In this document: in pieces, positions 5,814 to 26,676 of the stretch | Layout of the letters: each line of letters starts with the position of its first letter | How positions within the stretch are numbered: position 1 is the stretch's first letter | Assembly (NCBI GenBank): GCA_026389265.1 | Contig: JAPLIE010000123.1 | Coordinates: forward strand, 1 to 41,381 | Source of the DNA: Cyanobacteriota bacterium | Lineage (GTDB): Bacteria > Cyanobacteriota > Cyanobacteriia > PCC-6307 > Cyanobiaceae | Reading direction: 5' to 3' | Length of the DNA: 41,381 nt | The notes under the pieces: model-generated | Told to the model about the DNA's origin: nothing | The model's input: the letters and a program-made list of their open reading frames with translations, nothing else | Databases searched by the model: none | Position numbers and translations under genes: made by a program

Positions 5814-6920
5814 ATGGCTGCGCCCACCTACCGTCCCCTCGGCGTCGCCGTCGCAGGCCTTGGCTTTGGTGAGGCGGTGCACCTTCCGGCCCTGCGGGAT
5901 TGCCCAGGCACCGAGCCGGTGGCCCTCTGGCATCCCCGTGCCGAACGACTGGAGCGAGCCTGCCGAGCAAGCGAGCTCGGCGGCAGCACTGATTTCAGCG
6001 CCGTTCTCGCCGACCCGCGGGTAGAGGCCGTGGTGATCGCCACCCCACCGGCCCCCCGCTTCGAGCTGGCCCGCCAGGCCCTTGAGGCTGGCAAGCACCT
6101 GCTGCTTGAGAAGCCAGTGGCCCTCGAGGCCGCCGCCATCGAGGAACTGCAGCGGCTGGCCATCCGCCAAAAACTTTGTGTAGCAGTAGATTTCGAATAC
6201 CGCGCTGTGCCGGTCTTCCAGCAGCTCGCCGCCCTCCTGGCCGAGGGGGCGCTGGGGGAACCCTGGCTAGTGAAACTCGACTGGCTGATGGCTAGTCGCG
6301 CCGATGCCAGCCGTCCCTGGAGCTGGTACTCCCATGCAGCCGAGGGAGGGGGCGTGCTCGGCGCCCTCGGCACCCATGCCTTCGACATCCTGAACTGGCT
6401 CGTAGGACCCGCTGAGCTCCACGCCGCCAGGCTGAGCACGGCGATCCGGGAGCGCCCTCTGGCCGAAGCCAAGAGCGCCGGCGCCTCCGCCATGGGCGCG
6501 GTGGACGCCGAGGACATCGCCCTGATCCAGCTCGATCTCAGCGACTCCCTGGGCCGGCGGATGCCGGCCCAGGTGAACCTGGCCTCGGTGGCCCGGGCGG
6601 GCCGAGGCTGCTGGCTCGAGCTCTACGGCCGTGAGGCCACCCTGGTGCTCGGATCAGCCAACCAGGCTGATTATGTACACGGCTTTCAACTAGCGATCGC
6701 CCGGCCTGGGGAGCCCCTGCGGCCGGTACCCGCCGATCCAGCTCTGGCCTTCGGACGCACTTGGGAGGATGGCCGGATCGCGCCGGTGCGCCGGCTGATC
6801 GGCTGGTGGGCAAGCGCCGCCCGCGAGGGGCGGCCGATGGTGCCGGGCCTGGCGGAAGCGGCGGCCAGCCAGGTCCTCTGTGATGCCGCCCGGCGGCACC
6901 AGCCGATCGGGCCCGCATGA
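5814..6920 (+). CDS. Gfo/Idh/MocA family NAD(P)-dependent oxidoreductase
   Basis: This 368-residue protein has an N-terminal Rossmann domain (GVAVAGLGFGEAVHLPAL, residues 10-27; IATPPAPRFELA near 75-85) and the EKP motif (99-101) in KHLLLEKPVALE, which places the nicotinamide and catalytic lysine. The C-terminal alpha/beta domain has GGGVLGALGTHAFDILNWL, where the conserved His often acts in proton transfer. Members oxidise or reduce sugars, inositols, biliverdin or amino-sugars, and the substrate cannot be read from the sequence. It is not obviously biliverdin reductase, which is usually shorter. It is on the same strand as accD (41-base gap from the exported protein) and fba (97-base gap), and is probably transcribed with the former. 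The start ATG at 5814 is followed quickly by the Rossmann strand, as expected. Confidence 0.9.
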   Translation: MAAPTYRPLGVAVAGLGFGEAVHLPALRDCPGTEPVALWHPRAERLERACRASELGGSTDFSAVLADPRVEAVVIATPPAPRFELARQALEAGKHLLLEKPVALEAAAIEELQRLAIRQKLCVAVDFEYRAVPVFQQLAALLAEGALGEPWLVKLDWLMASRADASRPWSWYSHAAEGGGVLGALGTHAFDILNWLVGPAELHAARLSTAIRERPLAEAKSAGASAMGAVDAEDIALIQLDLSDSLGRRMPAQVNLASVARAGRGCWLELYGREATLVLGSANQADYVHGFQLAIARPGEPLRPVPADPALAFGRTWEDGRIAPVRRLIGWWASAAREGRPMVPGLAEAAASQVLCDAARRHQPIGPA

Positions 6921-22146: not shown

Positions 22147-22563
22147 ATGACCCTGAGCGGGAATCCGAGCAGAAGCAGGCTTGAAGGCCCCACGAATGGC
22201 GGCTCCAGCCCCAAGGAGGTGTGGCGGTGCATCCCGGGCTGCGGCTCCTGCTGCCGACTTGATCCCGCCCTGCGGGCTGAAGCCATCGAAGCCCTCAGCC
22301 CCCAGCAGCGGAGCACCTATCTGGCCATGGTGGGTAGCGATGGTTGGTGCATCCATTTCGACACCGGCGGCTGTCGTTGCCGGATCTACGACGAGCGACC
22401 CGATTTCTGCCGCATCAGCTCCCTGGTCGGCCTTTTCGGCGACGACGGGGAGTCGGGCGATGCCCTGGCAATCGCCTGCTGCAAACAACAGATCCGCAGT
22501 GAGCATGGAGGCCGTGGCAGGGTGATGCGACGCTTTCTGAACGCGATTCGGAAGCCACGATGA
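22147..22563 (+). CDS. YkgJ-family CxxCxxCC metal-binding protein
   Basis: These proteins bind zinc or iron through a cysteine cluster; their cellular role is unknown. With ATG 22147 the product has 138 residues: a short hydrophilic leader, the signature C-x3-C-x2-CC in [14 protein letters not shown], and a second cluster [17 protein letters not shown] further cysteine pair lies in [14 protein letters not shown]. The open frame extends back to 22060 but lacks conserved features there. The stop overlaps the first UPF0016 gene by ATGA (22560-22563), so the gene is coupled to a predicted manganese/calcium transporter. That is suggestive, but not proof, of a shared metal theme. Confidence 0.85.
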
Positions 22564-23030
22564 GCAGCTCCACCAATCCAGGGCCCGATCCCGCGCTCCC
22601 TCCCGAACCGATCGGCTCCAGCGACGGAAGCGGCACCGCTGCGTCTCCATCCACCGCCGGCCAAAACGGCCAAGCCAAAGCAGCAGAAGCCGGAGCGTCC
22701 ACCACTTGGCTCGGGGTGTTCCTCACCACCGCCACCACGGTCTTTCTCGCCGAACTCGGCGACAAGACCCAACTCGCAGCCCTACTGCTCTCGGCGCAGT
22801 CTGGACGGCCGGTGGTGGTGTTCGTGGGGGCTTCCCTGGCGCTGATCTGCTCCAGCCTCGTGGGGGTATTGCTTGGGCGCTGGCTGTCCACGGTGATGGC
22901 GCCGGAACAATTGGAGCGAGCCGCCGGCGTATTGATGGTGGCCCTTGGCCTCTGGCTCGGCCGCCAGGCCGTGCTCAACCTGGCCCCTCTGCACCTGCTT
23001 CAACCCGGCCTGGCCGGTCTCGTCCGCTAG
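22560..23030 (+). CDS. UPF0016 (GDT1/Mnx family) half-size cation transporter, first of pair
   Basis: The GDT1 family exports Mn2+ or Ca2+; in Synechocystis (Mnx) and plastids (PAM71) it loads manganese into the thylakoid lumen for the oxygen-evolving complex. Full-size members have two copies of a three-helix unit, each with E-x-G-D-K-T/S. This 156-residue protein has only one, FLAELGDKTQLAALLL (motif at 65-70), preceded by a 45-residue hydrophilic, Ser/Pro/Ala-rich N-tail. The second unit is encoded just downstream as a separate gene. The start overlaps the upstream stop (ATGA). No manganese riboswitch is possible immediately upstream because that space is coding sequence. Confidence 0.9.
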   Translation: MSSSTNPGPDPALPPEPIGSSDGSGTAASPSTAGQNGQAKAAEAGASTTWLGVFLTTATTVFLAELGDKTQLAALLLSAQSGRPVVVFVGASLALICSSLVGVLLGRWLSTVMAPEQLERAAGVLMVALGLWLGRQAVLNLAPLHLLQPGLAGLVR

Positions 23031-23051
23031 AACCACGTTCGTTTGTCTTCC

Positions 23052-23360
23052 ATGCTGGCGCTGCTCGGATCCACGTTCATCACCGTGTTCCTGGCCGAAC
23101 TGGGGGATAAGACCCAGCTGGCAATCGTGAGCATCAGCGGCACCACCAGCCGCCCCGGCGCCGTCTTCGCCGGCAGTGCAGCGGCCTTAGTGCTGGCGAG
23201 TCTGGTCGGGGCTGCGGCGGGGGGATCCCTCTCGAGCGTGATCCCACCGGACGCCCTGCAGCTGCTGGCTTCGGTGGGTTTCCTGATCCTAGGGAGCCGG
23301 CTGATCCTGCGGTCCTCCCGCAGCTGCGATGGCGAGAGCGGGGAGACCCCCATTCCCTAG
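23052..23360 (+). CDS. UPF0016 (GDT1/Mnx family) half-size cation transporter, second of pair
   Basis: This 102-residue partner carries the same three-helix unit with FLAELGDKTQLAIVSISG (motif E16-T21), followed by two more hydrophobic helices (VLASLVGAAAGGSL and LLASVGFLILGSRLIL). It starts 21 bases after the first half-gene ends. The two proteins probably assemble, with inverted topology, as a heterodimer equal to one full-length Mnx. Compared with the first half it lacks the long N-tail. ATG 23052 is preferred over TTG 23043 since the membrane helix begins directly after it. Its TAG stop (23358-23360) is also part of a TAGAGT hexamer. Confidence 0.9.
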   Translation: MLALLGSTFITVFLAELGDKTQLAIVSISGTTSRPGAVFAGSAAALVLASLVGAAAGGSLSSVIPPDALQLLASVGFLILGSRLILRSSRSCDGESGETPIP

Positions 23361-23658: not shown

Positions 23659-25959
23659 ATGAAGTTCACGGTCGCTGACCTGCTTGACCAGCTGACGAAC
23701 ACGGAGCCCATGCCCCTGCAGGATCTGGAAAAGGCCCTTACCCTGGACAGCGAGGTGGAGCGTCAGCAGTTGCGCATCGGCCTCGATGCTCTGGTGCGTT
23801 TGGCGGTGGTAACGGAATCGGAGGCCGGACTCCAGCGGCTGGACCATACCGATCTGGTGCCTGCCCGACTGCGCTGTTCCAGCAAGGGTTTCTGTTTCGC
23901 CCTTCGGGACGACGGTGGCGAAGACATCTACATCCGCGACCATCAGCTCAATCACGCCTGGAACGGCGACCGGGTTCTGGTGAAGATCACCCGGGAGGGG
24001 GGCCGCCGCCGCTCCCCCGAAGGAGGGGTTCAATGCATTCTGGCCCGGGACACCACGAGCCTGCTGGCTCAAGTGGAAGCGCGCGACGAAGAACGCCTGC
24101 TGGCCATTCCCCTCGACGACCGGCTCCTTACCAGCATCGAACTGCCGTTCGACGACCGCAGCCATGCGGACGCTGCCGGGGAGACGGTGGTGGAGGTCAG
24201 CATCGATCGCTTCCCGGTTGGTCAATTCGCTGCCCGTGGGCATGTGGCCCGCAGCCTCCCGGTGCGGGGTGGTCCCGCTGCCGACCGGGATCTGCTGCTA
24301 ACCAAACATCACATCCAGGGACGGCAACCGGCACCCCGCGCCAGCCTCCGTCATCTGGAGGAGAAGGAACGCCGCGATCTCACGGCCCTGGCGGTGCTGC
24401 TGCCGGAGAGCTGGAACGGCGTGGATGCGCCCTCCCTACCGGGCCTATCCCTCGAAGCCCGGGAAGAAGGGGGCTGGCGTCTCTGGGTCCATGCCCCGGC
24501 GGTGGCCGAGCGCATCAGCCCTGGCAGTGCCCTGGACACCTGGCTGAACCAGCAAGGCGAGGCCATCTGTGCCGGTACCCAATGGCTTCCCCTGCTGCCC
24601 CCCGCCCTCGACAAGGCTTCGGCATGGAGGGTCGGAGAACGGAATGAGGCCGTGTCCGTGGCTCTGGAGCTGAGCAGCGAAGGGGATCTGGAGCACTTTC
24701 GCTTCTGCCTGAGTTTGATCAAACCCTCTGCCCGTCTGGATTCGGCCGCCCTGGTGGCACTGGCGGAACGCAAGCCCAAGGCCCGCACGGTGCCCGCTGC
24801 CCTTAAGCCGCTGAAGGAACATCTGCCGCTGGTTGAGAGCCTGCTCACAGTGGTGGGCCTGCTACGCAGCCGCCGGCTTGAGACCGGATCACCAGATCTG
24901 GATCTTGCCAATCCGGCCATCGAGAGCCTCGGCGACCTGCGGATTCCGCTCCCCGATGCCTCTCGGGAGGGCTGGCTGGTTCAGCTTCCAGGCGACGAGC
25001 CCATGGGCCTGTTGCGTGAGGCCGTATTGGTGGCCCATCGCGCCCTGGGGCACCACCTCGCCGCCCTCCAGCTTCCGGGGCTGTTTGCCCGCAACAACCC
25101 GCCCGAAACCGATGACCTCAATGAGGTTGCCAAGGCGGCCCTCGCCCTCGAGATCCCCCTGGAGCTGAGTGCTGAAGGCAACGCCGATGCCGGCGAACTC
25201 GCCGCCGCCTTCGCCGCGACGGACCGCAGCCGCGCCCTTCAGAACCTGCTCCGGGGCAGCATGCAGCCCGTAGAGCTCGATAGCCAAAGCGGACCCCATG
25301 CCGTGGCGGGCGAGGCCGAGGCCTATGCCTCTTGGTGCTGCCCCGGCCTCCACTACACCGACCTCTGGAACCAGCTGCTGCTGGCCACCCTGCTCTCCCA
25401 GGGGAAGGACCGGCCCAGCGTGCGCCACAAAAGTGGGGTCGATCTAGCCAGCGACGCCTGCCATGGCAGCACCGACTGGCCGATTCTCACCCCATCCCAG
25501 CTGTCTCCATTCCAAGAAGCCCTTGCCCATGGACTGGCCAAACGGCTCAACGCCCGCAACCGATTCATGCTTGAGTTTCAGGCGGATGTGTTGGCCATGG
25601 CCCAGTCCCGCTACGCCGAACCCCTGGTGGGCCAGACCCTGACCGGTGTGATCAGCGGGGTACAGAGCTATGGCTTCTTCGTGGAGGTTCCCCCCTCCCA
25701 AGTGGAGGGCCTTGTGCACGTGAGCTCTCTCAAGGACGACTGGTACGAATACCGCTCGCGCCAAAATCGCCTGGTGGGGAGGAAAAACCGCCGCGTCTAC
25801 TTGGTGGGCGACCGGGTTGAGGTGGAGATCCAGAAGGTGGACGCCCTGCGTCACCAGATCGATCTGGCAGTGGTGCTGCCCGAGTCGGGTGAGGAAGCTC
25901 TTGTCGCGACGAACGGCGTGAAGGATGGCGCGGAAACGCTCGTTCTCGCCCCCCTCTGA
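23659..25959 (+). CDS. RNase II/R (RNB) family protein with apparently lost catalytic residues
   Basis: The 766-residue protein has the RNase R/II layout: an N-terminal helix-turn-helix-like part (1-60), cold-shock-type OB folds (about 65-225), an RNB core (about 232-580) and a C-terminal S1 domain (about 655-740, GQTLTGVISGVQSYGFFVEV). Family landmarks in the core are readable: ERRDLTALAV, LWVHAPAVAERISPGSALDTW and LPLLPPALDK. Active enzymes have a DxxDxDDA cluster after RxDLT; here residues 250-266 read ESWNGVDAPSLPGLSLE, without the paired aspartates. The family HFTSPIRRYxDLxxHR segment is SWCCPGLHYTDLW (558-570), losing both arginines. It may therefore bind but not cut RNA. ATG 23659 is chosen for the MKFTVADLLDQL opening; the longer open frame upstream looks non-coding. 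Confidence 0.85.
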   Translation: MKFTVADLLDQLTNTEPMPLQDLEKALTLDSEVERQQLRIGLDALVRLAVVTESEAGLQRLDHTDLVPARLRCSSKGFCFALRDDGGEDIYIRDHQLNHAWNGDRVLVKITREGGRRRSPEGGVQCILARDTTSLLAQVEARDEERLLAIPLDDRLLTSIELPFDDRSHADAAGETVVEVSIDRFPVGQFAARGHVARSLPVRGGPAADRDLLLTKHHIQGRQPAPRASLRHLEEKERRDLTALAVLLPESWNGVDAPSLPGLSLEAREEGGWRLWVHAPAVAERISPGSALDTWLNQQGEAICAGTQWLPLLPPALDKASAWRVGERNEAVSVALELSSEGDLEHFRFCLSLIKPSARLDSAALVALAERKPKARTVPAALKPLKEHLPLVESLLTVVGLLRSRRLETGSPDLDLANPAIESLGDLRIPLPDASREGWLVQLPGDEPMGLLREAVLVAHRALGHHLAALQLPGLFARNNPPETDDLNEVAKAALALEIPLELSAEGNADAGELAAAFAATDRSRALQNLLRGSMQPVELDSQSGPHAVAGEAEAYASWCCPGLHYTDLWNQLLLATLLSQGKDRPSVRHKSGVDLASDACHGSTDWPILTPSQLSPFQEALAHGLAKRLNARNRFMLEFQADVLAMAQSRYAEPLVGQTLTGVISGVQSYGFFVEVPPSQVEGLVHVSSLKDDWYEYRSRQNRLVGRKNRRVYLVGDRVEVEIQKVDALRHQIDLAVVLPESGEEALVATNGVKDGAETLVLAPL

Positions 25960-25986: not shown

Positions 25987-26676
25987 ATGCCTACCATCAA
26001 CTCCGCTGCAGCACCGGTGGTCCTGGCCGTCTCCGGTGCATCGGCACAACCGCTGGCCCAACGGGCCCTGCAGCTGCTCCTGGAAGCCGATGTGGCGGTA
26101 GAGATGGTCACCAGCCGTGGAGCCATCGGTGTCTGGCAGGCGGAACTGGGGTTGAGGGTTCCCTCGGAACCGGAGGCTCAGGAGCGGTTCTGGCGTGAAC
26201 GCACCGGCTGCGACAGCGGTCAGCTGCGCTGCCATCGCTGGAACGATCAGGCGGCCGCGATCGCCAGCGGCAGCCACCGCACCCGGGGGATGGTGATCCT
26301 CCCCGCCAGCATGGGAACGGTGGGCCGCATCGCCTCCGGCGTGGCGCTGGATCTGATTGAGCGCGCCGCCGATGTGCACCTCAAGGAAGGACGCCCCTTG
26401 GTGATCGCCCCGCGGGAGCTGCCCTGGAATCTCGTGCATCTGCGCAATCTGACCCGGTTGGCTGAAGCCGGTGCCCGCATCGCGCCGCCGGTGCCGGCCT
26501 GGTATCACCAGCCCCGCACAATTGAGGAAATGGTCGACTTTCTGGTGATCCGCGTCTTCGATGGCCTCGACCTCGAACTGGGCTCGTTGAACCGCTGGCA
26601 GGGGGCTGCCCTGGGAGCCCACCCCACAGGCCAGGATCGGCAGCAGCCCAGCTCCCTGCCCCCCGTCGAGCCCTGA
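25987..26676 (+). CDS. ubiX: Flavin prenyltransferase UbiX
   Basis: UbiX adds a dimethylallyl group to FMN, making the prenylated flavin used by UbiD decarboxylases. In cyanobacteria that supports plastoquinone-9 synthesis from 4-hydroxybenzoate. The 229-residue protein has the FMN-binding opening VVLAVSGASAQPLAQRAL, the central PASMGTVGRIASGVALDLIERAADVHLK segment (read here as two parts, PASMGTVGRIASG and DLIERAADVHLK), PLVIAPRELPWN, and PPVPAWYHQPRTIEEMVDF near the end. The usual GASGA motif is GASAQ here, a mild change. The C-terminal 25 residues are a Gln/Pro-rich tail beyond the family core. It lies 27 bases behind the RNB gene and may share its transcript. Confidence 0.93.
   Translation: MPTINSAAAPVVLAVSGASAQPLAQRALQLLLEADVAVEMVTSRGAIGVWQAELGLRVPSEPEAQERFWRERTGCDSGQLRCHRWNDQAAAIASGSHRTRGMVILPASMGTVGRIASGVALDLIERAADVHLKEGRPLVIAPRELPWNLVHLRNLTRLAEAGARIAPPVPAWYHQPRTIEEMVDFLVIRVFDGLDLELGSLNRWQGAALGAHPTGQDRQQPSSLPPVEP

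Follow-up and report, generated by a model that had tools for sequence, protein, structure and literature searches.

The window analysed here, i.e., the whole stretch of 41,381 nucleotides from a member of the Cyanobiaceae (contig JAPLIE010000123.1), contains at positions 23659–25959 of the forward strand a gene which is almost certainly zam, its product being an orthologue of the cyanobacterial protein Zam, a putative RNB-family pseudonuclease of 766 amino acids. The explanation which appears probable as a whole is that Zam is a dead descendant of RNase R, which would be redox-switched through its domain CSD1 and would act on RNA turnover. The conclusion that Zam is a dead nuclease is already published for the family (PMC9145284). 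In a literature search which covered few subscription papers, PMC9145284 was the sole paper found that was titled on Zam. Additional results obtained here are a graded retention of the catalytic site and a natural loss of the cysteine pair, which are of modest value.

Identification of the gene and its product

Translation of the open reading frame from the ATG at 23659 yielded 766 amino acids. A longer ORF is given by an alternative in-frame start at 23329; the N-termini of the aligned relatives coincided with 23659 and not with 23329. The ORF is real, and the relatives speak for 23659 as its start. Pfam scanning assigned four domains, all on the forward strand: OB_RNB (residues 70–125, 2e-19; positions 23866–24033), which represents CSD1 and contains C73 and C79 within RLRCSSKGFCFA; CSD2 (residues 88–130, 1.1e-8); RNB (PF00773, residues 238–580, 142.9 bits, 1.9e-41; 24370–25398), with the same span in the RNB search of the genome; and S1 (residues 656–737, 1.6e-13; 25624–25869). 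CSD1 and S1 also stood out by their conservation, and the RNB domain was apparent in an AlphaFold2 model. The order CSD-CSD-RNB-S1 is that of RNase R, as the initial annotation had recognized, and it was supported by Pfam, the AlphaFold2 model and comparison with PDB structures. The best NCBIfam match was the RNase R model with 197 bits, which missed the equivalog cut-off of 597.85, and a superfamily model was missed as well (156.9 bits vs. a cut-off of 368.6).

According to its published description, Zam is an RNB protein of cyanobacteria in which the site is degenerate and which comprises two cold-shock domains and an S1 domain, with C73 and C79 located in CSD1 (PMC9145284). In the window protein the numbering of C73 and C79 equals that of Zam from strain PCC 7002. 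It is in no way set apart from the described protein: Zam of Synechocystis PCC 6803 (sll1910) and of PCC 7002 have the same domain order and start, and the cysteines in CSD1, the degenerate RNB site and an accompanying intact RNase II are likewise common to the window and to Zam of PMC9145284. Relatives with equal start and domains showed about 30–94% identity to the window protein.

Loss of the catalytic site

The site of E. coli RNase II is formed by Asp201, Asp207, Asp209, Asp210 and Arg500, the most critical residue being Asp209, whose loss abolishes activity (PMC3293843). All site calls were made in one alignment, which comprised 177 proteins of the Zam type and 29 of the RNase II type. 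At the positions of the four acids the window protein has E250, P258, L260 and P261, and instead of S-P-x-R-R-Y it has C561-P562-x-L564-H565-Y566, with L564 at the position of Arg500; the four acids and SPxRRY were found in 29/29 RNase II-type rows, the second acid being Glu in 23. The degenerate metal-site loop comprises residues 244–266 (24388–24456, forward strand), and the segment in place of SPxRRY, which includes SWCCPGLHYTDLWNQ, comprises residues 554–575 (25318–25383, forward strand). Two claims of the initial annotation, the loss of the catalytic aspartates and the replacement of the HFTSPIRRY segment, are borne out by these data. The critical D209 is among the residues lost. Two small corrections are to be made: E250 is an acid at the D201 position, and a further Asp, D256, is present.

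The loss is common to the 104 aligned proteins of the Synechococcus/Cyanobium type: none has an acid at D207, D209 or D210, Arg500 is missing in all of them, and the D209 column contains Leu in 96. Their columns 244–265 hold 0–3 acids, vs. 5–7 in RNase II. An acid at the D201 position, such as E250, occurs in 40/104 of these close relatives; D256 is acidic in 80/104, but lies outside the metal-site columns, and E266 is retained in 97/104. The clade, which represents the extreme of Zam loss, has a replacement motif of its own, with W252 (100/104), P258 (100/104), L260 (96/104) and Ala at 262 (96/104) in the loop, and with N571-Q572 in all 104 proteins; position 571 is mixed in other Zams, Val being commonest with 38% of 61 thinned rows. 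Aspartates which are shifted and still present were looked for in the alignment of 177 Zams and 29 RNase II-type rows, and a mere shift was ruled out. We infer from these sequence comparisons that the window protein very probably has no exonuclease activity.

Two RNB matches were obtained in the window's genome, namely Zam and an intact RNase II, which carries TIDDDDTLDIDDG and TSPIRRY; an intact paralogue is therefore present in the same genome. Cyanobacterial RNase II (rnb, sll1290 type) belongs to the same RNB superfamily as Zam, but is its opposite with respect to acids and SPxRRY (kept in 29/29) and the cysteine pair (0/29). In a quick tree of the RNB domain, which included no bacterial RNase R and for which rows had been pre-sorted by profile score with a cut at 250 bits (RNase II rows score 113–182), 96 Zam rows were parted from the 29 RNase II-type rows by a branch with a support of 100.

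The cysteine pair

Mutation of C73 or C79 was reported to phenocopy deletion of zam, with less phycocyanin and an altered PSI:PSII ratio, and gel mobility of PCC 7002 Zam was found to be redox-dependent (PMC9145284). Both cysteines were present in 173/177 Zam rows and the pair in 0/29 RNase II-type rows. The four exceptions were L163 (C79 to Gly), L101 (C73 to Ser) and two rows of family f18. L101 is from Synechococcus RCC307 (around position 6214), with the codon TCC, and the related L102, L104 and L105 have Cys; the change concerns a residue whose mutation phenocopies deletion in PCC 7002 (PMC9145284).

In family f18 both cysteines are gone in 7/7 genomes searched (L151, L168, L199, L243–L253). 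The segment reads RFSRGSFWA, in G330 YSRGSYWA, and is one residue shorter. Catalytic acids were lost as well in the two full f18 rows that were aligned. One of these genomes is presumably that of Gloeomargarita lithophora. Since family f18 is without the pair, the redox model cannot cover every Zam, and the term "invariant" used for the cysteines in PMC9145284 needs to be limited in view of their natural loss. Two further observations were made in f18. In L168 (G235:C1:735500-738500) zam extends across two overlapping ORFs in different frames, of 281 and 475 amino acids, which may be due to a frameshift, a split gene or a sequencing error. Genome G346 contains two differing Zam copies (L243 and L248), which may have arisen by duplication or be a consequence of contamination.

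Graded loss of the site among Zams

The 177 rows are a non-random sample of full-length Zams. They were drawn from the 80 top-ranking of 568 named relatives, from the best 30 loci of the phylum search, and from hand-picked and profile-search loci; five partial Zam ORFs (L200, L201, L215, L222, L168), the window copies L002 and L003, and exact duplicates were left out. The sample consists of 104 picocyanobacterial rows and 73 others, with the low-identity rows L146–L148 of the window's own family put among the latter. Acids at all four positions were found in no Zam, three acids in seven, two in 31, one in 62, and none in 77. Six of the three-acid Zams read D-A/V-D-D and one R-D-D-D, and all seven contain SPxRRY. 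Arg500 was retained in 38/177 Zams, all of which belong to the 73 rows that are not part of the main picocyanobacterial set; the D209 position was acidic in 56 of these 73, vs. 0/104 of the picocyanobacterial rows. The Pfam RNB scores of the three-acid Zams were 320.6–336.4 bits (the rest of their clade reached up to 351.1), whereas the RNase II-type proteins among the matches listed scored lower, with about 257–279 bits; the Pfam score alone would therefore mark the three-acid Zams as good nucleases. A poor site, T/A/E-V/F-E-N at the four acid positions, was present in seven Zams of family f7, which we take to be Nostocaceae.

The order of losses was estimated from a tree of 96 rows, from which the site columns had been removed and which was rooted on L202–L207 (family f46, presumably Gloeobacter). 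This was a quick tree, with no bootstrap, 25 open forks and flagged long branches, and the following counts are indicative. With regain forbidden, parsimony required at least 9 losses of the D209 acid and at least 15 losses of Arg500; with regain allowed, a site-bearing root required 9 and 12 changes, respectively, and a site-less root 6 and 9. The likeliest history would appear to be that the ancestor was active and that the site was lost repeatedly; this ancestor should have had the acids, because all four are present in 29/29 RNase II-type rows.

The graded pattern could be accommodated by a wider proposal, according to which Zam was a once-active cyanobacterial RNase R whose CSD1 and S1 had an additional, non-enzymatic role linked to redox. 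This role would have been retained while catalysis was lost many times; some Zams with D201-D209-D210-Arg500, e.g., L116, L125 and L126, may still be weak nucleases, and in f18 the switch would have been lost too. We consider this proposal possible, although on the unlikely side. That one clade regained its active site, or received it by gene conversion, is an unlikely alternative to repeated loss. The rows with D209-D210 do form one nested clade, and with regain allowed and a site-less root just 3 changes would suffice for D210, and 6 for D209. However, this clade was kept whole by the RNB domain alone (19 rows and L119, support 94), and there was no sign in the RNB-only tree of a domain swap behind it. 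It was also the nearest to RNase II of four groups, with a mean path of 2.22 to ten RNase II rows, although the degenerate f7 group was almost equal (2.40); the deepest rows, L202–L207, and the picocyanobacteria were at 3.84 and 4.55. The occurrence of all four acids throughout the RNase II-type rows argues for their presence in the ancestor.

Distribution of Zam

Matches to the window protein at E ≤ 0.001 were found in 143 of 291 genomes of the phylum. Of these, 141 belong to the window's class, with best E-values ≤ 1e-47; this is a number of matching genomes and not a statement on every member of the class. The remaining two, G010 and G018, lie outside it and matched with RNase II-type proteins. 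When a profile was used to search 22 genomes, of which 20 belong to the class, four class members (G344, G352, G321, G292) yielded only RNase II-type proteins, the assemblies of G321 and G292 being fragmented. Zam seems to be truly absent from G344 and G352 (family f53; L212, L214), since the assembly of G344 consists of one contig and G352 is from the same family. According to PMC9145284, Zam was present in every cyanobacterial genome searched in that study.

Conservation, selection and predicted fold

Column conservation in 80 Cyanobium/Synechococcus rows was 0.94 for CSD1, the highest of any part of Zam, and 0.88 for S1. In 73 Zam rows CSD1 (0.75) and S1 (0.74) were likewise far above RNB (0.38); the 29 RNase II rows showed the opposite, with 0.48 and 0.43 vs. 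0.60 for RNB. The conservation pattern published for Zam is thus confirmed with a larger set. The dN/dS ratios of 12 pairs, some of which are rough since dS exceeded 1 in several pairs, were 0–0.038 for CSD1, 0–0.060 for S1 and 0.065–0.275 for RNB; between the window protein and its nearest rows, L033 and L034, the RNB ratios were 0.183 and 0.119. Purifying selection continues to act on the RNB domain of Zam. Unusually high conservation of the replaced site was seen in only one of its two parts: among 49 picocyanobacterial proteins (the 104 thinned at 80% identity), the segment in place of SPxRRY was highly conserved, with 8% of RNB windows at least equal, and the loop was close to the domain average, with 43% at least equal.

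An AlphaFold2 model from a 29-row alignment had a pLDDT of 88.7 and a pTM of 0.85, with an ordered site loop and a pLDDT ≥ 82 in every ten-residue block of residues 241–580. The top solved relative in Foldseek was 8cdu, in which RNase R is bound to an intermediate of 30S degradation; other RNase R structures matched with Z 36.4 and an rmsd of 3.2 over 612 residues (7did) and Z 34.4 (5xgu), followed by lower matches to Dis3L2, Rrp44, RNase II and the pseudonuclease Ssd1 (7am1, Z 30.5). In fold and domain order bacterial RNase R (5xgu, 8cdu, 7did) is therefore like the window Zam, but the latter has lost the catalytic acids and Arg500 and lies far under the RNase R cut-off.

Gene neighbourhood

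A flavoprotein gene adjoins zam at 25987–26676 on the forward strand. The labels ubiX for this gene and acsF for another neighbour come from the initial annotation; Pfam scanning gave Flavoprotein and Rubrerythrin, respectively. Neighbourhoods were counted in 80 named loci, from which 24 shorter ones were omitted, and gene order was seen in 15. Homologues of ubiX, DUF2996, acsF and tldD were beside zam in 56/56 named loci of more than 13 kb. Among 20 other loci, 8 had a flavoprotein (ubiX) homologue near zam and 2 had acsF, of which L237 is from the window's own family. Linkage to acsF would seem to characterize the clade rather than Zam itself, and the operon context gives little as a functional clue. 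A GDT1-type cation/proton antiporter is encoded by two adjacent half-size genes (22560–23360 of the window), both of which were near zam in 55/56 close loci.

Possible function of Zam

Deletion phenotypes have been published for PCC 6803 and PCC 7002; the zam phenotypes are resistance to acetazolamide, less phycocyanin and a changed PSI:PSII ratio. Purified PCC 7002 Zam, which aggregates, gave neither nuclease activity nor RNA binding (data not shown in that study), according to PMC9145284. An RNA-binding protein without nuclease activity had been proposed in the initial annotation; of this, the full-length RNB fold and the very probable lack of exonuclease activity, as judged from the residues present, can be maintained, but RNA binding was not found in the study mentioned.

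Zam probably descends from an active RNase R-like exonuclease, with retention of the CSD1-CSD2-RNB-S1 fold and loss of RNA cutting. CSD1 and S1 would be the conserved working parts, and the RNB domain could be a scaffold, perhaps with an altered binding channel. A disulfide between C73 and C79, in an RNA-facing loop of CSD1, would toggle Zam from one state to another as the redox level of photosynthesis changes; the switch would govern the docking of Zam, either to RNA or to the degradosome (RNase E), and would thereby adjust RNA turnover in favour of or against pigment and photosystem genes. A redox switch acting through CSD1 is likely. The RNase E/RNA step is one that we infer, and action of Zam through RNase E is put forward with hesitation.

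A function as RNA chaperone or ribosome factor, as had also been suggested, is improbable. Zam possesses highly conserved OB-type domains, and rank 1 in Foldseek is an RNase R bound to a 30S degradation intermediate; but a scan of nine neighbouring proteins gave no match to a ribosome-biogenesis family, the phenotypes reported for zam relate to pigments and photosystems, and RNA binding in vitro was not found (PMC9145284). No finding here points to such a role.

The proposed link to RNase E is based on Alr1240 of Anabaena, which was described as an exonuclease on unstructured RNA that binds and stimulates RNase E (PMC10989914); according to PMC9145284, the protein studied there was Zam. Should both papers be correct, activity was reported for a Zam whose site is degenerate. 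Given the poor site of the f7 Zams, either Alr1240 is the RNase II paralogue, or a contaminant was responsible for the activity, or a Zam can be active in spite of its degenerate site. It could be argued that Zam still cuts RNA by means of acids displaced within the loop (E250, D256, E266), in view of this report, of the frequent acid at 256 and E266 (80 and 97 of the 104 close relatives), and of the loop's own conserved pattern. We regard this as very unlikely, since the critical D209 column is Leu in 96 and acidic in none of the 104, Arg500 is absent throughout, the loop holds fewer acids (0–3) than that of RNase II (5–7), and no activity was reported in PMC9145284, albeit from an aggregation-prone preparation. 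That the protein is decaying after loss of function can practically be dismissed, for although RNB evolves faster than CSD1 and S1, its dN/dS stays at 0.065–0.275 across the 12 pairs, relatives keep long open frames, and the predicted fold is ordered.

Comparison with fungal pseudonucleases and significance

Yeast Ssd1 and fungal Dis3L2 pseudonucleases resemble Zam in having a dead RNB fold, conserved cold-shock domains and repeated loss of the site (PMC8934651, PMC8097288). They are eukaryotic and derived from Dis3L2, whereas Zam is bacterial, with an RNase R-like domain order and mostly with a redox cysteine pair. In Ssd1 the inner path is blocked and RNA is held on the outer surface (PMC8934651); the window Zam was compared with it by fold alone. 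For the fungal Dis3L2/Ssd1 proteins repeated loss of RNase II activity was reported (PMC8097288).

Zam would link the photosynthetic redox state to RNA metabolism, possibly by a step at RNase E or RNA. The naturally occurring three-acid and cysteine-less variants permit tests of the nuclease and the redox hypotheses by comparison. What happened in fungi, where RNase II activity was lost repeatedly, probably has its bacterial counterpart in the cyanobacteria.
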